A stretch of DNA of 64,000 nt from Bacilli bacterium. GTDB taxonomy: Bacteria; Bacillota_I; Bacilli_A; RFN20; CAG-826. Shown piece after piece: positions 2,737-13,882 of this stretch. How positions within the stretch are numbered: position 1 is the stretch's first letter; each line of letters opens with the position of its first letter. Where the stretch lies: NCBI GenBank assembly GCA_017454295.1, contig JAFTDF010000020.1:1-64000 (forward strand), read 5' to 3'. A program made the translations under genes and the position numbers. The notes beneath the pieces were generated by a model that saw nothing but the letters and a program-made list of their open reading frames with translations, did not search any database and had not been told where the DNA came from.

Positions 2737-3501
2737 ATGGAAACAAAACAAATTCTATATGAGCTCAGGACCAAAAACGGGCTATCCCAAGACGAGCTTG
2801 CGGAAAAGGTTTTCGTGACGAGGCAAGCGGTTTCGCGCTGGGAAAACGGAGAGACGGTTCCCGCAACGGAGACACTGAAGCTGCTCTCTAAGCTCTTCAA
2901 CGTTTCGATTAATACGCTGCTTGGTTCTCCTCATCCCCTTTATTGCCAGTGCTGCGGCATGCCGCTAGATGATTCGATCATCGGCAAGAACGACGACGGT
3001 TCCCTAAACGAGGAGTATTGCAAATGGTGCTATGCGGACGGGACCTACACTTATGACAACATGGATGATCTCATCGATGTCTGCGTTCCCCATATGGCCA
3101 AGGAAGGATTTTCCGAGGAAGAGGCTCGCGCTTATATGAAGGAAAAACTTCCCAACCTTAACTATTGGAAACGCCATGACGAACTAAGCGATCAAGGGAA
3201 GTTCGATGCCTTTAAGAAAACACTAATCGAAGAAATAAACGGCCTGCACATCGAGGGTATGCCCCCAGTAACCAAGCTAAGCGCCCTCGTAGGCTCATAT
3301 GTAAACTTGGAATACCCATTGTCTAACGGGGCGAAGGTGAAATTCCTCAACGATGAGACAACGTACCTAGGCACTCAGCTCGAGTCCGAAACCGACATGG
3401 GGTTCTGCTATGGCGTCGTTGCCAATGTGGACTTCATCCTTATTTGCACCTATGGCGAGGGAGGTTCTGATCCAAAACTTGTCATGTACAAGAAAAGATA
3501 G
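2737..3501 (+). CDS. XRE-family regulator with zinc-ribbon domain
   Basis: Residues 1-60 form an XRE helix-turn-helix (LRTKNGLSQDELAEKV, then RQAVSRWENGETVPATETL). A putative zinc-ribbon domain follows, with Cys pairs CQCC and CKWC around residues 69-98. The last 60 residues form a separate beta-rich domain I do not recognise. I chose the ATG at 2737 because GGAGG lies 8 bases upstream; the open frame extends further but has no ribosome site there. XRE plus this zinc ribbon is known in Bacillota regulators. The effector is unknown. An inverted repeat near its promoter suggests self-control. Confidence 0.75.
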   Translation: METKQILYELRTKNGLSQDELAEKVFVTRQAVSRWENGETVPATETLKLLSKLFNVSINTLLGSPHPLYCQCCGMPLDDSIIGKNDDGSLNEEYCKWCYADGTYTYDNMDDLIDVCVPHMAKEGFSEEEARAYMKEKLPNLNYWKRHDELSDQGKFDAFKKTLIEEINGLHIEGMPPVTKLSALVGSYVNLEYPLSNGAKVKFLNDETTYLGTQLESETDMGFCYGVVANVDFILICTYGEGGSDPKLVMYKKR

Positions 3502-3548
3502 TTTCTGTTCTCGCGAACAAGAAAACTTCCTTCGTAATCAAAGAAGCC

Positions 3549-4208
3549 TCATTCAAGATTTCTTTCTAATATATTGGGTTGCGTTTCGATAAATCCTTTT
3601 GCTTTATAAAATAGTTTTGATTCCCAATATTTTTCATCTCCGATATGAATCGACATCTTTTTATAACCCTTATTTTTAATATACTCTTCAAGAGTTTGCA
3701 TCAAAGCGGTCCCAACGCCCTGCCTTTTTAAGTCGGGTTTAATATATAATCTATGGACCCTTGCTTCCCCAGGATTTATCGTCTCATATCCAACGCAGCC
3801 AATAACCCGTGCACCATCTAAGGCAACCCAAAACATATCTCCTCTATCAAGATAATTCGATTTAATATCTAATAAATCTGGATTAATTGATGGAATTTTT
3901 CCCAATGCATTCTTTGCCGACAGCACCATAAATATCATGTCATCTCGAAAACGTTCATCGTAACGGGCTATTTTAAATTCTGGCAATTTGCAAGTTTTGC
4001 CTGTAAAAAATATACCAACATGGACCTCTAAAAGTTCAGCAAGTTGTGCAAGTGCTTCCCCCGAAATATCGTTAACACCTGTTTCGATTTTTGTTAATCC
4101 AGAGCGATCTTTGAATCCCATCCTTTTGGATAGTTCCTCTTGGGAAAGCCCTCTCTCTTTTCTGATTTCCCTAATCGTCTCTCCAATTTCCTTTTTGGTT
4201 GTGTTCAT
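3549..4208 (-). CDS. XRE-GNAT fusion protein
   Basis: A 219-residue two-domain protein. Residues 1-65 are an XRE helix-turn-helix (IREIRKERGLSQEELSKRMGF, then SGLTKIETGVNDISGEALAQLAELL). Residues 75-219 are a GNAT acetyltransferase with the acetyl-CoA loop DLKRQGVGTALMQ. The ATG overlaps the stop codon of the RhuM-PLD gene upstream (ATGA), so the two are coupled. The DNA is AT-rich compared with core genes, a sign of transfer. XRE-GNAT fusions sit next to toxin or mobile loci in other genomes, but the acetylated target is not visible here. A HipB-like link to the upstream gene is speculation. Confidence 0.8.
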   Translation of the reverse strand: MNTTKKEIGETIREIRKERGLSQEELSKRMGFKDRSGLTKIETGVNDISGEALAQLAELLEVHVGIFFTGKTCKLPEFKIARYDERFRDDMIFMVLSAKNALGKIPSINPDLLDIKSNYLDRGDMFWVALDGARVIGCVGYETINPGEARVHRLYIKPDLKRQGVGTALMQTLEEYIKNKGYKKMSIHIGDEKYWESKLFYKAKGFIETQPNILERNLE

Positions 4209-5068
4209 AATATAACTCTATCCTTTAGAACGTCTTTAACATCCTCATCTTCGATAAGTGTAATCTGGGTGAATCTTTTTCCTAGATGATTAATTGACGC
4301 GCCAAGGTGATAGAAATATGTGCTGTCAATAATCAAATACCTATCATGGTAATTATCATCATGAGTCACACTAAGATTCCCATATTCTTGATTGAACAAG
4401 TCTATGTCAACTTGAGACACCTTTGCCTTAGAAGAAACGATGATTTTTAATTCAACCCCATCGCTCTTCCCTTTGAAGCAATTAAGCGCTTTTATATCGC
4501 AATACGGGTCAATCAAAACAATTTGTTTCACTGCCCTGCTAACCAAATCATTAATCAGAGATAGCGCATCAAAAATTTGTCCTCCAAAAACAACCCGATC
4601 TTTGAAGAAATAATTCTGATCTTTCTCAAGTTTTTCCATTCTTGAATCAAGCAAATCAACTTTTTTAATAAGTGCTGCATAATTGTCATTAGTAATTAAA
4701 GTTCTGTTTTCATCAACAACATAGCCTCTTAATAAATATTCCTTAAGAACATTGGCGGCCCACTTTCGAAAAATAATTCCATTTCGTGACTTGACTCTAT
4801 AACCGACAGAAATAACCACGTCTAGATTGTAATAATCTACATAATATGTTTTCCCATCAGAGCCAGTTCGGGCAAATTTTGCCCATACTGAATTTTTCTC
4901 ACATTCTTCCAAAAGAGCATTTTTTACATGTTTTCCTATTACCGATCGATCTCTACCAAAAAGCATTGCCATATCATCTAGCGACAGCCAAACAGTTTCT
5001 TCTGATGGCGAAACATTTACTTCGAGCTTTAAATCGCCATGCTCGAATCTAATTAATTCTAATTTCGT
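4205..5068 (-). CDS. RhuM-family protein with C-terminal PLD-like domain
   Basis: The N-terminal third matches RhuM/ORF6N proteins (TVWLSLDDMAMLFGRDRSVIGKH spans part of it, then KTYYVDYYNLDVVISVGYRV and FRKWAANVLKEYLLRGYVVD). A coiled-coil linker (LLDSRMEKLEKDQNYF) leads to a phospholipase D-like domain with one catalytic-type motif, HDRYLIID, which is HxKx4D with Arg in place of Lys. The first ATG in frame is at 4972, inside the conserved domain. The frame stays open upstream to 5077 and encodes the missing conserved residues, but has no ATG, GTG or TTG there. ACG at 5068 is the likely original start position, read as an altered ATG. The DNA is AT-rich. RhuM proteins are common on mobile DNA; their function is not settled. 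Confidence 0.7.
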   Translation of the reverse strand, partial: TKLELIRFEHGDLKLEVNVSPSEETVWLSLDDMAMLFGRDRSVIGKHVKNALLEECEKNSVWAKFARTGSDGKTYYVDYYNLDVVISVGYRVKSRNGIIFRKWAANVLKEYLLRGYVVDENRTLITNDNYAALIKKVDLLDSRMEKLEKDQNYFFKDRVVFGGQIFDALSLINDLVSRAVKQIVLIDPYCDIKALNCFKGKSDGVELKIIVSSKAKVSQVDIDLFNQEYGNLSVTHDDNYHDRYLIIDSTYFYHLGASINHLGKRFTQITLIEDEDVKDVLKDRVIL

Positions 5069-5074
5069 GTTGAT

Positions 5075-5103
5075 ATTTTATCACATGTGACGATTTGTCA
5101 CAT
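5075..5103 (-). promoter_or_regulatory. RhuM promoter with palindromes between -35 and -10
   Basis: GTGACA and TAAAAT with a spacer of about 15 bases that contains the inverted repeats GTGAC-AAATC-GTCAC and TCACATGTGA. The -10 ends 7 bases before the ACG codon at 5068, the spacing expected for a leaderless transcript. Confidence 0.45.
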
Positions 5104-5170
5104 ATAATTATTCGAAAACCCCAGTTCGAGGCACAAGAAAACCGCCCTTTCGGACGGCTGTCTATGGATA

Positions 5171-5215
5171 CGTCGTTTTGTCCAACTTCGGATAAATGAC
5201 TTTGGACGACGACAA
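5171..5215. repeat. Degenerate intergenic repeat, copy C
   Basis: TTTTGTCCAACTTCGG, then ATAAATGACTTTGG, then ACGACGACAAC. It shares TTTGTCCAACT and GACGACGACAA with copy B and GGACGAC plus flanks with copy A. TTGTCCAA and TTGGAC-GACAA can pair, so the unit may fold as a hairpin. Confidence 0.45.
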
Positions 5216-5229
5216 CAGGAAATAAAAAA

Positions 5230-5305
5230 TGGTGGAACATAGCGGGATCGAACCGCCGACCTCCTCGTTGCGAACGAGGCGCTCTCCCAGCTGAGCTAAT
5301 GTCCC
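5230..5305 (-). tRNA. tRNA-Ala(CGC)
   Basis: The 76-base minus-strand unit folds as a full cloverleaf. The acceptor stem is GGGACAT paired with ATGTTCC, the D arm reads AGCTCAGCTGGGAGAGC, the anticodon stem is CCTCG/CGAGG with loop TTCGCAA, the T arm has GGTTCGATCCC, and the discriminator A is followed by an encoded CCA. Anticodon CGC reads GCG (Ala). The 3' end faces the accessory block at 1-5,200, as in tRNA-targeted integration, but no second copy of the 3' end was found in the window. Confidence 0.95.
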
Positions 5306-5511
5306 ACAGCCCGATAATTATAACCTCCTCGCCACTTCGTTCAAGGTAAGAAAACGTCCCGCCTTGAAAATCTTTCATGAAAGTCAATTTTCCAGTCGCC
5401 CATTTTCAAAAGCGGCAACACACGCAAAAGAAAACAGAAACTCATCTTTGCGAAATACCAACCAAAAAAGTCAGCCGAAAAGACAAGCCTGTTTCCAAAA
5501 ATCTTTCGCAC

Positions 5512-5517
5512 TATCAT
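5512..5517 (+). promoter_or_regulatory. -10 element at leaderless spacing for the Y-family polymerase
   Basis: TATCAT is followed by six bases and the ATG at 5524, placing the start codon at +1. No ribosome site with usable spacing is present. No clear LexA box was seen upstream. Confidence 0.45.
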
Positions 5518-5523
5518 CGGGGT

Positions 5524-6777
5524 ATGGAAGAGGTCTATTGCGTCATCGATTTAAAAAGCTTCTACGCCTCCTGCGAATGCGCCGCACGCGGGCTCGATAT
5601 CTTTTCCACGCCGCTGGTGGTCGCCGATCCCGACCGCACCTCTTCGACCGTCGTCATGTCGGCCACGCCGTTTTTAAAAGAACGTTATGGCATTCCGAAC
5701 GTCTGCAGAGTCCGCGATTTGCCCGATGTTCCCGGCTTAATTTTAGCAAAACCGCGCATGGCATATTACCTGGAAATGTCCGCAAAAGTCGTCTCGATCT
5801 TCCTCGATTTCGTCGATGAGGAGGATCTTCACGTTTATTCGGTCGACGAATCCTTTCTCCGGCTAACCCCTTATTTAAAAATGAATCGCGCGACCCCGGA
5901 GCAACTCGTCGCCAAAATCCAAAAAGCCATCAAAGACGAACTTGGGCTCGTCGCCACTTCCGGCATCGGACCCAATATGTTCCTCGCCAAAATCTGCTTG
6001 GATAACGAAGGGAAAAAGAAGCCGCCTTATGTGGCGCGGTGGGGTTATGAAGATGTCCCGACCAAACTATGGAAGATCCAACCCATCACCAAGATCTGGG
6101 GCATCTCCCACGGCATCTCCTCCCACCTCTATCGGCTGGGCATTTATACCTTAGAGGCCTTGGCCAAAGCCGATGAAAAACTTTTGAAGAAAGAATTCGG
6201 AGTTATCGGACTTCAACTCAAAGATATGGCCAACGGCATCGATCGCACCGACATCCGGGAAAAATACGTCCCCAAAGAAACGAGCCTCAGCCAAGGGCAA
6301 ACCCTGTATCGCGATTACAACAAAGCCGGAGCGCGCCTCGTCTTGCGTGAACTCATCGACGATCTCGCTTATCGCCTGCGAGCCGCCTCCTCCAAAGCGG
6401 GTTTGGTTTTCGTTGGGGTCAATTATTCCGCCGCAAGCAATCGAAAGGGATTTTCCAAGCAAACTTCGCTCAATATTCCTACCGATGATTCCGAAACCTT
6501 GTATCAAGCTTGTCTCCGCCTATTCGACCAAGGGGTGGAAGAAGGTCCAATTCGGGGGCTCTATATCGCCTTTGGCAAGTTGATTTGCAACCACGGCACA
6601 CAGCAACTCTCCTTATTCGAAACCCCGGAAGAAGAGGAGAAACGGCATCGATTGGATTTGGCGTTGGACCAAGTATCCGCAATGTTTGGCCGCAACGCAG
6701 CCTTACGGGCTTCTTCGTTGACTGAGGATTCCAACATCAAAGAACGACATACCATGATTGGAGGGCATCACGCATGA
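5524..6777 (+). CDS. Y-family DNA polymerase (UmuC/DinB type)
   Basis: A 417-residue translesion polymerase. The catalytic acidic residues are visible in VIDLKSFYASCE (Asp9) and YSVDESF (Asp108, Glu109). The thumb segment has the helix-hairpin-helix KIWGISHGISSHLYRLGIYTLEALA. Near residue 361 QLSLF is a textbook sliding-clamp binding motif. The frame is open for 49 more codons upstream, but these residues do not look conserved and the ATG at 5524 opens the canonical domain. It overlaps the YolD gene by ATGA, an arrangement found for UmuC-type polymerases in Bacilli. It should bypass DNA damage at stalled forks. Confidence 0.9.
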   Translation: MEEVYCVIDLKSFYASCECAARGLDIFSTPLVVADPDRTSSTVVMSATPFLKERYGIPNVCRVRDLPDVPGLILAKPRMAYYLEMSAKVVSIFLDFVDEEDLHVYSVDESFLRLTPYLKMNRATPEQLVAKIQKAIKDELGLVATSGIGPNMFLAKICLDNEGKKKPPYVARWGYEDVPTKLWKIQPITKIWGISHGISSHLYRLGIYTLEALAKADEKLLKKEFGVIGLQLKDMANGIDRTDIREKYVPKETSLSQGQTLYRDYNKAGARLVLRELIDDLAYRLRAASSKAGLVFVGVNYSAASNRKGFSKQTSLNIPTDDSETLYQACLRLFDQGVEEGPIRGLYIAFGKLICNHGTQQLSLFETPEEEEKRHRLDLALDQVSAMFGRNAALRASSLTEDSNIKERHTMIGGHHA

Positions 6778-7118
6778 ACGATTCCGATCGTGGGATGATG
6801 AAATATGCCCCTTATAAATCTTTGGTGGAGCAATCGACCATCTTGGCCAAGATGCGTTATGAAAAAGGCAAGCGCCCCCGCCCTCTGATTTCCGCTGATC
6901 GGGCCAGGGAGATCAACGACGTTTTGGTCGGCTATGGCGGAGAAGAAGTCGAAGCCGAATACTATGAAGACGGTTACCGCCACCGCATCGAAGGCGTGAT
7001 CGAAACGATTTCAAGCACCCTGCGCTTCCTCATTATCGAAGGGAAGCAGATCGCGTTTGGAGATCTGCTAACGCTCGTGAGTTCCAAATTGGCACCGGTA
7101 GATTGTTGGAGCTGCTAA
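6774..7118 (+). CDS. YolD-like protein
   Basis: A 114-residue YolD-family protein (MMKYAPYKSLVEQSTILAKMRYEKGKRPRP spans its start, followed by a conserved beta-rich part GYRHRIEGVIETISSTLRFLIIEGK). Genes of this family often sit next to Y-family polymerases in Bacillota and have been proposed to act with them, like UmuD with UmuC; the mechanism is unproven. It is translationally coupled to the polymerase gene (ATGA) and is followed by a strong bidirectional terminator. Confidence 0.8.
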   Translation: MNDSDRGMMKYAPYKSLVEQSTILAKMRYEKGKRPRPLISADRAREINDVLVGYGGEEVEAEYYEDGYRHRIEGVIETISSTLRFLIIEGKQIAFGDLLTLVSSKLAPVDCWSC

Positions 7119-7130
7119 CCGAAGAACAAA

Positions 7131-7198
7131 AAAGGGGCTGTAATCCTCGCCTTTTGCCAGTGGTTGGCTTGAGGTTTTGTTACAGCCCCTTTTCTTTC
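7131..7198. terminator. Bidirectional rho-independent terminator
   Basis: GGGGCTGTAA pairs with TTACAGCCCC around an inner CCTC/GAGG hairpin. AAAAAA and TTTTCTTT flank the stem, so it can end the polymerase-YolD operon on the plus strand and the small peptide gene on the minus strand. Confidence 0.85.
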
Positions 7199-7207
7199 AA
7201 TGCTCAA

Positions 7208-7366
7208 TTAGAAGTTATAGATGGAGAGGGGGATACTCGGAGCGGCAGAGCAACGGATCGAGAGGTCAGCATAGGTCAAGGCGACCAGTGCATTGTCTTC
7301 TTCAGTCTTATTGATGTCGCTTTCATAGCCCAATTCTTCGTCAAGGAGCTTGATTGCGTCGGTCAT
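7208..7366 (-). CDS. Small peptide gene (52 residues), precursor-like
   Basis: A 52-codon frame, ATG at 7366 and TAA at 7208-7210. AAGGAGGT lies 6 bases before the ATG, a near-perfect ribosome site. A promoter is visible upstream (TTTACC-18-TATAGT) and a terminator follows directly. The first half is strongly acidic (KLLDEELGYESDINKTEEDN); the second half is hydrophobic and hydroxyl-rich with one Cys, ending SIRCSAAPSIPLSIYNF. The leader/core look resembles peptide precursors that are processed or modified, such as RiPPs or signalling peptides. No modification enzyme, protease-exporter or immunity gene is adjacent, so the class is unknown. There is no typical signal peptide. Confidence 0.7.
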   Translation of the reverse strand: MTDAIKLLDEELGYESDINKTEEDNALVALTYADLSIRCSAAPSIPLSIYNF

Positions 7367-7422
7367 GTGCCTACCTCCTTTCATGTTGTGTTTGATTTCG
7401 GTGGTCTTTTTTGACCGCCACC

Positions 7423-7452
7423 ACTATAGGCGTCTACAAAAAAGTTGGTAAA
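7423..7452 (-). promoter_or_regulatory. Promoter of the small peptide gene
   Basis: TTTACC and TATAGT separated by 18 bases on the minus strand. A short hairpin (GGTG-GC-GGTC with GACCACC) lies in the leader between this promoter and the ribosome site. Confidence 0.5.
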
Positions 7453-7453
7453 T

Positions 7454-7480
7454 AGAAAGCGTTTTCAGTAAGTGCTTTCA
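7454..7480 (-). promoter_or_regulatory. Two overlapping cre-like sites
   Basis: On the minus strand TGAAAACGCTTTCT fits the CcpA cre consensus TGWAARCGYTWNCW at every position. It overlaps by one base with TGAAAGCACTTACT, which differs at one position. Both lie just upstream of the peptide gene's -35, where CcpA activates in Bacilli. No ccpA gene is in the window. Confidence 0.5.
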
Positions 7481-7493
7481 AATTTTCTGAAAA

Positions 7494-7534
7494 TAAAAAG
7501 TGGCTTTTTATCGAACTTTTAGCCACTTTTTTGA
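7494..7534. terminator. Terminator after the M29 aminopeptidase gene
   Basis: AAAAAGTGGCT and AGCCACTTTTTT form the stem. On the minus strand it is followed by TTTTTATTTT. It separates the aminopeptidase transcript from the peptide gene. Confidence 0.8.
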
Positions 7535-7583
7535 AAGCGATACCAATTTTCGTTTTCAGTGTTTTGACTTGTTTTTTCAGTCT

Positions 7584-8878: not shown

Positions 8879-9652
8879 ATGAGCAAAGCCCTCGAAAAAA
8901 GCAAAAAACTCAACCGCTTCTGGATGTGGTGGAACATCGTCGAAGCCGTCATCATTCTCGCCGCCGGCATCTTGGCCATCGTCGCCGGGGTCCGCAACGA
9001 CTCTTCCGGCAACATGGAGAATGTCCTCGCCTATGCTATTTCCGGCTTTGTTATCCTCGACGGAATCCTTCGCATCGTCGTCTACTTCTTCCGTTATCGC
9101 AAAGGCGATGAAGTGACGCCGTTAATCCTCGCCGGATTCCAAGTGAGCATCGGCACTCTTCTATTGGTCTTACAAATCAAAGCCAACATCGTCATCGTCG
9201 CCCTCATCAATTTCATCTCCATCGTACTCATGGTGATGGGCGTGTTAATCCTCACCTATTCGATCTTCCAAATCGTCCGCAAATACGCCGCGTTGGTTAT
9301 TCCCATCTCCACCATCGTCTTGGCGGCCGTCTTAATCGGCGTTGGCATCGCGATCACCATCCTCTACAATTCGCAAGACACCCACCAGCAGCTCGTTCTC
9401 ATCATGACCGGCTCCATCATGTCGATCGTCGGCTTGGCCCAGTTCATCGTCACCATGATCACCGCCAAGAAAGCCAAGAAGGAAATCAAACAATACGAAA
9501 AAGAAGAGCAGGGCAACTATGACGTGGTCGATTCCAAGAAGCAAAACGCCCCGGAACAGAAGGCCGAAACTCCGGAAGTCATCGAGGCCGAAGAAGCCCA
9601 CGAAGACCCCGCCCAAATCGAAGGTCCGAAAGCCATCGAAAACAAGGAATAA
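8879..9652 (+). CDS. Polytopic membrane protein, DUF308/HdeD-like
   Basis: A 257-residue protein with about six hydrophobic helices between residues 15 and 200 (for example VIILAAGILAIVAGV and FISIVLMVMGVLILTYSIF), followed by a charged, Glu/Lys/Ala-rich cytoplasmic tail of about 60 residues. The paired-helix layout resembles DUF308 proteins. A TATAAT (8850s) and an AAAGGGGA ribosome site precede it. A shorter relative is encoded at 10606-11292, on the far side of phoH. No function can be assigned; acid-stress proteins of the HdeD type are the nearest known family and the match is loose. Confidence 0.6.
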   Translation: MSKALEKSKKLNRFWMWWNIVEAVIILAAGILAIVAGVRNDSSGNMENVLAYAISGFVILDGILRIVVYFFRYRKGDEVTPLILAGFQVSIGTLLLVLQIKANIVIVALINFISIVLMVMGVLILTYSIFQIVRKYAALVIPISTIVLAAVLIGVGIAITILYNSQDTHQQLVLIMTGSIMSIVGLAQFIVTMITAKKAKKEIKQYEKEEQGNYDVVDSKKQNAPEQKAETPEVIEAEEAHEDPAQIEGPKAIENKE

Positions 9653-10579: not shown

Positions 10580-10605
10580 ACCCACGAAATCAAAGGAGTT
10601 TGCTT

Positions 10606-11292
10606 ATGTTCAAACGCGGTAGTGTGGCTTGGCTGGTGTGGAACCTGGTCCTTGCCACCATCATTCTTGGCTTCGGAATTGCCAACCTCATCAACAACAA
10701 CGTTCCGGAATACCAATACGTCATCATCTTGATCCTTGGGATTGTGATCGTTACCGATGCGGCCTTCCGTTTGCTGCTGAATATCATCACCATCATCAAT
10801 TTGGGGAAGCGTAATCTCATTATCGATACCCGTGGTCACGCGGTCCTCGCTTCCTTCGAACTTGCGGTTGGTATCTCCACCATCCACTTGGCCCGCTTAA
10901 TCAACGCCGACATCACTCAAGCTGACTTCCTCTTCCGTTTCTTGGGCGATTTCATCGGCATTGCCGCGATCGTCTGTGGTGTCTTGGCGCTTGCTTATAC
11001 GATCATCATGATCGTCAAGAAAGCCGCTCAGCCCATCGACATGGGCCTTGGCATCGTCGGCAGCATCGTTTCGGTCACAGCTGGCATCTTGGTCTTGATC
11101 TATCTCACCAACGAAAACGTCTTACGTGCCTTCTTCATCCTCTTCGGCGTCATCGGGGTAGTGTTTGGCACCATGCTCATCCTCGGAACCCTCGTCCTTT
11201 ATTTCCGGGCCCGCAAAATGAAGAAAGCGTTGCAAGCCCATTTGGATAGCGCCTCGGAAGAAGAAAATCAAGCAGACGTCATCGAACAATAA
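10606..11292 (+). CDS. Polytopic membrane protein, relative of the 8879-9652 product
   Basis: A 228-residue protein with about six membrane helices (VWNLVLATIILGFGIANLI, YVIILILGIVIVTDAAFRLLL, and others) and a short acidic tail. Size, helix spacing and the sequence AxRLLL-type turns resemble the protein encoded at 8879-9652, so the two look like old duplicates that flank phoH. AAAGGAG sits 7 bases before the ATG at 10606; the TTG six bases earlier is a less likely start. Function unknown; loosely DUF308-like. Confidence 0.6.
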   Translation: MFKRGSVAWLVWNLVLATIILGFGIANLINNNVPEYQYVIILILGIVIVTDAAFRLLLNIITIINLGKRNLIIDTRGHAVLASFELAVGISTIHLARLINADITQADFLFRFLGDFIGIAAIVCGVLALAYTIIMIVKKAAQPIDMGLGIVGSIVSVTAGILVLIYLTNENVLRAFFILFGVIGVVFGTMLILGTLVLYFRARKMKKALQAHLDSASEEENQADVIEQ

Positions 11293-11331: not shown

Positions 11332-13074
11332 TTACCTTAGGCCGGATTTTTTATCGACGTCGGCTTTCCGTGGGAATAAGCGACGGGAGAGGCGGCACCC
11401 TAGGAATGCCTCCGGGCCCACATGGAATTCGGTGCCACGGGGCACGAAAGTCTTCAAGGAAGCGCAATTTTGGAAGGCACCTTCGCCGATGGTCAATTTC
11501 CTGGTGGACTTGCCGGTTTCGAAACGCTCTAACTTTTTACAATTCATGAACGTATAGAGATCGATGCAGATTTCCTCACCTTGCAAAACCACGACGCTTA
11601 AAGACGGGCAATCCCGGAACGCGTTGGCGTCGAGCGTCAATTTGTCGGCGGTGATGGCAATCGCGAAAAGACGGGGACAATTTTGGAACGCCCCTTCTCC
11701 GACGAAGAAGGAATCCGTTTTGGGGAATCCGATCTTGGTAATCATCGATCCCTGAAACGCATGGTCTTGGATTTCTTTGACCGTGGAGGGCAGTTGCACC
11801 ACTTCAACGGTTGATCCACGGAAAGCATGTGGGCCAATGGAAGTAATCCCTTCGGGTAACCCGAGGTTTTTATGGTTCCCTTTATAGCGGATGAGGACTC
11901 CATTGCGGACTTCCAAGCTTGGGTCGTCAATGGCGGGATAATCACGCGTTAGCGGCGTTTTGGCCAGACCGGCTTTAACGTTTTTGGCAACATTGGAAAA
12001 TAAATTCTTCACAAAGCCGCGGCCCTTGGGGGCACTTGGTTTTGGCGTCGGTTCGGGCTGGGGATTCGGGGTTTCCACTTTGGGGGCGGATTCTTTGGCT
12101 GCGGTTTTGGCTTTTTTGGGTTTGGGCGTAGGGGCTTCCATAGCGGTGGATTCAAAGCGAAGCAACCGTTCCACAAGGTCTTCTTTATCGCGGCACCACT
12201 CCAAATTCGCGAACACGCTCCGCAAAATCGATTTGGCGGCGAATTTGGTTTGGGGACCATATTCTTGCCCCAAATATTCGACGCGGTTCATTTTGGGTAG
12301 GTGGTCCCGGATATAGGGGAGTTCAAACCGCATGGCATCGCAACTAAGACGACGGGAATTCTCCGTGGAAACGAAAACCACCGTTTTACAATGGGCCATC
12401 GCGTCATGAAGGGCATCTTGATAGTTTTCCTTAGCCCCTTTGCCGTGGCGAAGATTCCGCACGGCCACGAAGACCGTGAATTCGTTTTCTTCCAAAAAGT
12501 CGGCAATGGAAATGGCCAAAGGAAGATCGGCGCTGGAATAGGCCAAGAAGACATCGCGGGGAAGGTTGGTTAGATAGACGCCTTCTTCCACCCGTTCGGC
12601 TTCTTTTTCCACTTTGTTATAGGCATCCAGAAGCGCATCGCCTTTTAAAGACCGTTCGAAATAGGCTTTTAAGGCAAAGACGTTGCGTACATCTAAATTT
12701 AATAAGGAAAAGCGCAACACTTCTTTCGCGGTGGTGGGATCAGGACGAGCAATGGTCAAAAAATGGTTGAGCGCCGCCGGCTCTTTATCTAGACAAGCAA
12801 GATAGAAACGAGCCATTTCATCCTCGGCGAAAATGGACAAAACGTCTTGGGCCGCGGCAAAAAGTTCGGTGGAAGAGACATTCTCCCGATGGGCCGCATC
12901 CCAAAGCAAGCGACGGCGGTTGGATAAAAGCGCGAGTTTTTCTTCGGCAACGAAAGAAGCGAGCTCTTCCAAATCCGCTCCTTTGTCATAAATGGCGCCA
13001 CAATAAGGGCAGCGGTAGTTTTCCCCTTCTTGGAGAAGCTGTTCGCCACATTGCTGACATACATGCCGCTTCAT
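11332..13074 (-). CDS. Zinc-ribbon / TIR / BspA-type leucine-rich-repeat protein
   Basis: A 580-residue multidomain protein with no signal peptide. A zinc ribbon has Cys6, Cys9, Cys22 and Cys25. A helical region of about 130 residues follows. Residues 173-260 form a TIR domain: RDVFLAYSSADLPLAISIADF, BB-loop region VRNLRHGKGAKENY, and CDAMRFELPYI, whose Glu251 aligns with the catalytic Glu of NAD-hydrolysing TIRs. A Lys/Pro/Ala-rich linker (about 312-355) leads to about seven BspA-type (LRR_5) repeats, such as ITSIGPHAFRGSTVEVVQLP. I chose ATG 13074 because GGGGG lies 7 bases upstream. It follows folD by 13 bases and should share its transcript. NAD cleavage or a defence role is inferred from the TIR only. 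Confidence 0.85.
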   Translation of the reverse strand: MKRHVCQQCGEQLLQEGENYRCPYCGAIYDKGADLEELASFVAEEKLALLSNRRRLLWDAAHRENVSSTELFAAAQDVLSIFAEDEMARFYLACLDKEPAALNHFLTIARPDPTTAKEVLRFSLLNLDVRNVFALKAYFERSLKGDALLDAYNKVEKEAERVEEGVYLTNLPRDVFLAYSSADLPLAISIADFLEENEFTVFVAVRNLRHGKGAKENYQDALHDAMAHCKTVVFVSTENSRRLSCDAMRFELPYIRDHLPKMNRVEYLGQEYGPQTKFAAKSILRSVFANLEWCRDKEDLVERLLRFESTAMEAPTPKPKKAKTAAKESAPKVETPNPQPEPTPKPSAPKGRGFVKNLFSNVAKNVKAGLAKTPLTRDYPAIDDPSLEVRNGVLIRYKGNHKNLGLPEGITSIGPHAFRGSTVEVVQLPSTVKEIQDHAFQGSMITKIGFPKTDSFFVGEGAFQNCPRLFAIAITADKLTLDANAFRDCPSLSVVVLQGEEICIDLYTFMNCKKLERFETGKSTRKLTIGEGAFQNCASLKTFVPRGTEFHVGPEAFLGCRLSRRLFPRKADVDKKSGLR

Positions 13075-13087
13075 ATCCACGCCCCCT

Positions 13088-13882
13088 TTATTTTTCTTTG
13101 ACCGCCAATAATAGATTCGAAATTAACGCTAAGCGCGTGAGCAAGCCAACCCCACCAGGGACCGGCGTTTGTAAAGCCACGGGGAGACCAGGCACGGCAT
13201 CGCCATGGAGTTTGCCGTCCTCGCCCCGATTGATGCCGATGTCGACAATGACGGCGCTGGGTTTATAGGCGAACGATTCATTCAGATAGCCAAGGCGGCC
13301 AATCGCCACGACGATGAGATCGGCATGCGCAAGATAGAAAGCTTTATCTTCTTGGGTGGTTTTCGAATGCAGCACCGTGACGTTGCAATTTTTCTTAAGT
13401 AACATCTTCGCCATGGGTTTTCCCACGATTTCGCTGCGTCCAAGAACCACGGCATTGGCGCCTTGGAAGGGGAATCCCTCGGCGGAGAGATAATCGATGA
13501 TGCCTTTCGGGGTGCAGGGATCGAACGAGGTCAAGGGGTGAAACCCATCGACGTCTTTTTTTGGATTCACCGCGAATTTGATATGGGCTTCACTGATATG
13601 GGGCGGCAAAGGAAGCTGAACGATAATGCCATCGATCTCGTCATCGCAATTGGCTTTCTCGATTTCCGCGATCAATTCCGCTTCGGAAATATCCACGGGG
13701 AAGCGCCGCAAAATGGCGTTGGCCCCGATTTCGCCGGCATCTTTGATTTTGCCGCGAATATAGGCGTCCGAAGCCGGGTTTTCGTTGGCTTGGATGATTA
13801 AGAGAGTCGGTGGGTTTTCTAAGGAGGCCACTTCTTGGGCGAGTATGCCTTTTTGCGCTGCTACGAATTCTTTAATAGTCAT
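13088..13882 (-). CDS. folD: Methylenetetrahydrofolate dehydrogenase/cyclohydrolase FolD
   Basis: A 264-residue bifunctional enzyme of one-carbon metabolism that interconverts 5,10-methylene-, 5,10-methenyl- and 10-formyl-tetrahydrofolate in the cytosol. The catalytic YxxxK motif is Y41-K45 (YIRGK). IIVQLPLPPHI, DVDGFHPL, VLGRSEIVGKPMA and TPVPGGVGLLT are the family signatures, including the NADP-binding loop. It starts a transcript that continues into the TIR-LRR gene. There is no ribosome site; TGT-TAAGAT ends 7 bases before the ATG. Confidence 0.97.
   Translation of the reverse strand: MTIKEFVAAQKGILAQEVASLENPPTLLIIQANENPASDAYIRGKIKDAGEIGANAILRRFPVDISEAELIAEIEKANCDDEIDGIIVQLPLPPHISEAHIKFAVNPKKDVDGFHPLTSFDPCTPKGIIDYLSAEGFPFQGANAVVLGRSEIVGKPMAKMLLKKNCNVTVLHSKTTQEDKAFYLAHADLIVVAIGRLGYLNESFAYKPSAVIVDIGINRGEDGKLHGDAVPGLPVALQTPVPGGVGLLTRLALISNLLLAVKEK

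Follow-up and report, generated by a model that had tools for sequence, protein, structure and literature searches.

The window, by which we mean the whole 64,000-nucleotide stretch of DNA that was analysed, carries on its minus strand a gene for a 580-residue protein that follows folD. The features assigned at this locus are as follows.

13088..13882, minus strand: folD (identity confirmed by Pfam), an adjacent housekeeping gene and not a conserved partner
13082..13087, minus strand: ribosome-site-like AGGGGG, 7 bases 5' of the ATG, read directly from the sequence
11332..13074, minus strand: gene for the zinc-ribbon/helical/TIR/BspA-LRR protein, 580 aa, ATG at 13074
11332..13080, minus strand: the same gene from an alternative GTG start at 13080
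12979..13074, minus strand: four-Cys zinc ribbon, residues 1-32, with Cys6, 9, 22 and 25
12586..12945, minus strand: helical region, residues 44-163, seven helices in the AlphaFold2 model
12139..12567, minus strand: TIR domain, residues about 170-312, from Pfam, PADLOC and structural matches
12322..12324, minus strand: codon of Glu251, the predicted catalytic Glu
11935..12138, minus strand: Pro/Lys-rich linker, residues 313-380, mostly disordered in the model
11395..11919, minus strand: BspA-type leucine-rich repeats (LRRs), residues 386-560, seven repeat motifs

The order of zinc ribbon, helical region, TIR domain, linker and BspA-type LRRs had been proposed in an initial annotation and was borne out by Pfam and AlphaFold2. 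The LRR_5 match is strong (E 3e-31, 108.3 bits), TIR_2 lies just over its cut-off of 28 bits (30.1 bits, E 7.6e-7) and covers the first half of the TIR domain only, and zinc-ribbon models match the four cysteines weakly (DZR, E 0.011). These cysteines are nevertheless kept in 43 of 45 relatives (distinct ORFs after removal of duplicates), the other two being without that part of the alignment. AlphaFold2 modelled residues 1-320 with a mean pLDDT of 88.4, giving the zinc-ribbon strands, seven helices and a TIR domain, and the full-length protein with a mean of 83.6, in which the LRR solenoid is mostly above 90 and linker residues 313-359 fall below 50 and are disordered. No transmembrane segment was found in the protein by a hydrophobicity scan (maximum 1.32) and no signal peptide or export signal was seen; we regard the protein as a soluble, cytoplasmic chain. 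As the list of VIA-align matches for the protein spans residues 170-312 only, the helical region is without a fold assignment; it may serve as an adaptor or oligomerisation part. The GC content of the TIR gene (0.512) is no different from that of the window (0.497) or of folD (0.516).

The gene had also been placed in an operon with folD. The adjacency itself stands, with folD on the same strand and ending at 13088, separated by 13 bases from the ATG of the TIR gene, but it is confined to this genome. A match to folD was obtained in 26 of 31 congeneric genomes (five gave none), and only at the locus in the window's own genome does the TIR gene adjoin it; the other 25 loci have different neighbours, among which small membrane genes and PhoH-like genes are frequent (names by reading). 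As none of these 25 folD loci has the TIR gene, we rejected a functional link between the two genes; a special role for folD is not supported. A genome survey for the same architecture and neighbours, which the initial annotation had advised, recovered a family with exchanged C-termini but no conserved folD neighbour. The genes adjoining the TIR gene are folD and a membrane protein gene without a PADLOC match; we identified no defence gene beside it, its neighbours being housekeeping or small membrane genes, and recognised no adjoining secretion genes. Two small membrane proteins of unknown function, similar-looking to each other, are encoded at 8879-9652 and 10600-11292 of the window, and relatives of this type come after folD in many congeners.

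Both the sequence profile and the predicted fold place the protein in the TIR domain superfamily. Its structural neighbours by Foldseek and VIA-align are the TIR domains of SARM1, RUN1/RPV1, IL-1RAcPb and TIR-APAZ proteins, the best being IL-1RAcPb, SARM1 and RUN1/RPV1 (VIA-align Z 14-15, up to 15.2); the SARM1 TIR domain superposes with Z 14.9 and 2.5 A over 122 residues. PDB titles among these neighbours include the SARM1 E642A and RUN1 E100A mutants. In the AlphaFold2 model Glu251 sits in the helix after strand 229-236. Alignments of PDB entries to profiles built from near members alone (A2 and A4) end before Glu251, and distant members were therefore added (A5, twelve rows, of which ten are distant members and two near); the residue-level alignment of Glu251 with known NADases depends on this inclusion of distant members. 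The Glu251 column is invariant in A5, and through that profile it lines up with the Glu of AbTir (7uwg), of PdTIR (3h16) and of the C. elegans protein titled 'NAD(+) hydrolase tir-1' (8p2m). Presumably its counterparts are E642 in SARM1 and E208 in AbTir. A Glu occupies the column in 41 of the 45 relatives; the four without an aligned Glu are the fragments L037 and L048, L041, which has Glu-Glu at the site with an aligner gap, and L025, which is gapped there. The initial annotation had called Glu251 catalytic-type, to be abandoned if it did not align with the catalytic Glu of NADase TIRs. Structure prediction and alignment with such TIRs uphold the call, giving a TIR fold and, at the level of sequence, a Glu251 in register with the Glu of AbTir and tir-1, so that this ground for abandoning it does not arise. 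On sequence evidence, Glu251 is probably the catalytic Glu of a TIR NADase.

The window's genome (1.63 Mb, 90% complete) encodes six paralogues, making seven family members in all. The paralogues, with open frames of 561-1294 aa, align from residue 1 to about residue 306-332, with 39-49% identity, and leave the LRRs unmatched; according to Pfam, three of the six end in LRR_5, one in a Ribosomal_L12 C-terminal domain and one in a sub-threshold TPR, with nothing recognised beyond the TIR domain in the sixth. The paralogues adjoin unrelated genes. Used as a query, the 320-aa N-terminal half matched in 6 of 41 genomes, and a profile of the seven proteins matched in 6 of 31 congeneric genomes (with 1-10 copies where present and nil in the rest), 9 of 395 of the class and 5 of 392 in a draw from the phylum, all five belonging to the same class; these three draws share genomes, and the window's own is in every one of them. 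A contig search added 17 loci, from MAGs whose titles name Erysipelotrichaceae, Bacillales, Clostridia and Oscillospiraceae. Searches of plasmids, phages and viral contigs returned no relative, so there is no sign of mobile-element carriage, and carriage by plasmids or phages was rejected as a candidate.

The constancy of the N-terminal half and the exchange of what follows it extend across the relatives. A Pfam scan covering 37 of the 45 ORFs found C-terminal LRR_5 in 16, Sel1 in six, DUF6273 in two, Ribosomal_L12, UvrD and a sub-threshold TPR in one each, and no recognised domain in ten; across all 45, the N-terminal half is also joined to membrane helices or extra zinc ribbons, a simple hydrophobicity scan finding a hydrophobic stretch in ten (L014 being doubtful). 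Exchange is most direct in L064 (LRR) and L066 (Sel1), which come from one MAG and are 73.5% identical over 468 columns, with nothing significant thereafter; L010 (L12-like) and L017 (LRR) are likewise 57% identical over 441 columns and then share nothing significant. In 12 of 12 hand-chosen pairs the C-terminal part was less alike than the N-terminal half, a quicker divergence that may be due in part to linkers and repeats. On a tree of 43 N-terminal halves, from which two fragments were excluded, the C-terminal types are intermixed and the presence of LRRs changes at least eight times (37 scanned rows). The window protein clusters with L016, L010 and L017 (support 99/94), and as its tree neighbours L016 and L010 are without an LRR match, its LRRs were not simply inherited along with the N-terminal half. 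Three loci deserve separate mention. At 2987-4866 of L065 the zinc-ribbon/TIR half is fused to a UvrD-type helicase resembling GajB and other defence helicases, in an ORF cut by the contig end. The L010 member (2847-5717) has a domain resembling the L7/L12 C-terminal domain of the ribosome, which is perhaps bait for something that targets ribosomes. Near the paralogue in L014, an ATPase gene at 6153-7580 gives a strong PADLOC match (E 3e-104) to PDC-S01, a candidate defence model.

One branch of the family has a constant neighbour. In five of five members of a clade (L009=L002, L012=L005, L013=L006, L026 and L031; support 100/98) a DUF1292-type gene lies directly upstream on the same strand.

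L009 401-1444: DUF1292-type gene, Pfam 6.5e-10
L012 2412-3116: DUF1292-type gene, no Pfam match, 42% identical to that of L026
L013 8040-9074: DUF1292-type gene, Pfam 9.3e-5, just under the cut-off
L026 847-1497: DUF1292-type gene, Pfam 7.9e-4, under the cut-off
L031 3-341 and 353-1258: two DUF1292-type genes, Pfam 9.2e-5 and 7.7e-8

DUF1292 is a domain of unknown function, and some of the partner genes contain several stretches of it. The partner requires a single change on the tree, and four of the five matches in a PF06949 search of seven genomes were these partners; the other examined loci had no DUF1292-type gene, bar a lone one in genome G016. The window protein falls outside this sister clade, and a DUF1292 partner for its gene, sought within the window, was not found. 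The DUF1292 and zinc-ribbon/TIR/LRR genes possibly form a two-gene module, which would give DUF1292 a testable role as the partner or restraint of a predicted TIR enzyme.

There is a second neighbourhood, present in two Clostridia MAGs as well as one Bacilli-class genome, in which TIR-LRR genes accompany genes for MIT/Vps4-like AAA proteins, Snf7-like coiled coils and FtsK-/TraG-type ATPases (L117 5601-15820; first 10 kb of L067 and L069). In genome G033 two TIR-LRR genes, one with its TIR gapped at the Glu column, are flanked on one side by a gene that joins an FtsK-type ATPase to a Snf7-like coiled coil and on the other by an MIT-like AAA gene. In the Clostridia MAGs of L067 and L069 a TIR-LRR gene lies near AAA genes; L067 further encodes a TraG-type coupling ATPase and a partial AAA protein that matches Vps4_C. 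Between G033 and L067, identity is 46% for the AAA proteins and 26%, over 120 residues, for the coiled coils. The labels 'MIT' and 'ESCRT-III-like' are our reading of these neighbours: Snf7 matched the L067 protein at E 0.062, and at E 0.01 the coiled coils of G033 and L069 gave no match. Just upstream of the FtsK/TIR cluster, L117 2385-5384 encodes a 999-aa protein with InlB-type repeats and a Hint module.

Our preferred reading, in which we place a little more belief than doubt, is that these proteins are a family of intracellular sensor-executors, whose exchangeable C-terminus triggers NAD cleavage by the TIR domain, probably for phage defence. The constant half (zinc ribbon, helical region and TIR) would act as executor, and the C-terminal LRRs, on their flexible linker, would bind a trigger such as a phage protein or another foreign or damaged protein. 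Binding would lead the protein to self-associate, upon which the TIR domain would cleave NAD+ using Glu251, either to deplete it and stop the infected cell or to produce a signalling nucleotide. Joined to other C-termini in the paralogues, the same executor would give the genome a small repertoire of triggers. NAD cleavage, autoinhibition, self-association, the nature of the trigger and phage defence are what we infer for the family, with phage defence probably its likeliest use. A sensor-triggered NADase repertoire is consistent with an executor that stays constant while its C-termini change, with the conservation of the Glu, with the patchy presence in several copies and with the UvrD fusion; the weak ThsB-type matches in PADLOC also count in its favour. 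Counting against it, no defence gene was identified beside the window gene, no relative turned up in plasmids, phages or viral contigs, Pfam matches half of the TIR domain only, the alignment of Glu251 depends on distant members, and BspA repeats, being widespread among the surface proteins of mucosal microbes, reveal little about the ligand. A broader proposal, which we put forward tentatively and would not bet on as a whole, is a combinatorial innate-immune receptor family of small-genome gut Bacilli and Clostridia, with swapped sensors on a constant executor in up to 7-10 copies per 1.3-2.4 Mb genome, one branch being controlled by an upstream-encoded tandem DUF1292 protein and distant branches being coupled to an ESCRT-III/Vps4-like machine. 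Such a family would be the counterpart, in bacteria, of TIR-NLR repertoires and would do without a STAND NTPase.

Among the alternatives, a sensor-executor or scaffold answering to something other than phage, such as envelope damage, competitor toxins, kin recognition or stress-induced arrest, survives best, and we consider it unlikely but worth serious attention. Ten of the 45 relatives are predicted to be membrane-anchored (one doubtfully), and some carry Sel1, DUF6273 or InlB-like repeats, which are often found in envelope-facing proteins; some distant relatives adjoin the MIT/Vps4-like AAA, FtsK-/TraG-type ATPase and Snf7-like coiled-coil genes, and the surroundings of the window gene showed no defence island. 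The window protein, however, is without a membrane segment, and the UvrD fusion and the patchy, expanded presence fit conflict over foreign DNA at least equally well. For the members with membrane helices we hold an envelope trigger to be as likely as phage. It is improbable that the TIR domain is a non-catalytic interaction module and the protein a scaffold: many animal TIRs act as adaptors and Pfam matches only part of the window TIR, but retention of the Glu column in all relatives except two fragments, L041 and L025 argues against it. An effector directed at the host, blunting animal TLR signalling as TcpB does, is very unlikely. BspA repeats occur in mucosal microbes, and the MAGs of the relatives read, from their titles, as animal-gut lineages; the zinc ribbon at the N-terminus, the absence of any visible signal peptide or membrane segment, the free swapping of C-termini and the lack of recognisable secretion genes alongside all speak against it. 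That the protein regulates folate- or NADP-linked metabolism together with FolD can be practically dismissed despite the shared strand and 13-base spacing, as the TIR gene adjoins 1 of 26 folD loci of the genus and the paralogues adjoin unrelated genes.

Returning to the sensor-executor reading, the window protein shares some features with several known systems and differs from each in others. With the TIR NADases (SARM1, C. elegans TIR-1, AbTir and plant TIRs) it has the TIR fold and the aligned Glu in common, to which it adds the N-terminal zinc ribbon, helical region and exchangeable C-terminus, its activity being predicted. Thoeris ThsB matches its TIR weakly (PADLOC ThsB E 5e-7; NCBIfam ThcB4 22 bits against a cut-off of 220), but the protein has large extra domains, and neither adjacent position holds a ThsA-like gene, which sets the locus apart from Thoeris as defined by adjacency. 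Profile and solenoid fold both assign the repeats to the BspA type (LRR_5), the Foldseek neighbours being LRR proteins such as 4fd0 and 6mlx; several of these are titled cell-surface, whereas the window chain is without an export signal. In its TIR-like domain with variable auxiliary domains and a conserved Glu the family resembles the DUF4062/Swarozyc NADase defence proteins (PMC13174449), although the accessible part of that source has no zinc-ribbon or LRR form, and Pfam does not match DUF4062 in the window protein. Varied auxiliary domains are in general a known feature of bacterial TIRs (PMC7075850, PMC13174449), and as diverse architectures are typical of prokaryotic TIR groups (PMC7075850), modularity as such is nothing new. 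The open-licence literature, in its accessible portions, yielded no description of the zinc-ribbon/helical/TIR family, its C-terminal exchange or its DUF1292 pairing, which is no proof of absence from print, and the zinc-ribbon/TIR/LRR family is not described in the accessible text of PMC13142454, PMC7159879 and PMC9092222. Animal Toll-like receptors also combine LRRs and TIR in one chain, but the window protein has the opposite domain order and no membrane span and so falls outside that class. Plant TIR-NB-LRR receptors share with it TIR and C-terminal LRRs in one cytoplasmic chain together with expansion of the gene family; unlike them, the window protein has BspA-type LRRs, a zinc ribbon and no NB-ARC/STAND NTPase, and as no NB-ARC, NACHT or other STAND NTPase matched it in Pfam up to E 1, it is not an NLR/STAND protein. 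Since single small genomes contain naturally occurring sensor swaps on a shared TIR executor, sensing by the C-terminus and switching of the TIR without a STAND NTPase are directly testable here, and the seven-protein set looks like a small bacterial counterpart of the immune-receptor families of plants and animals.
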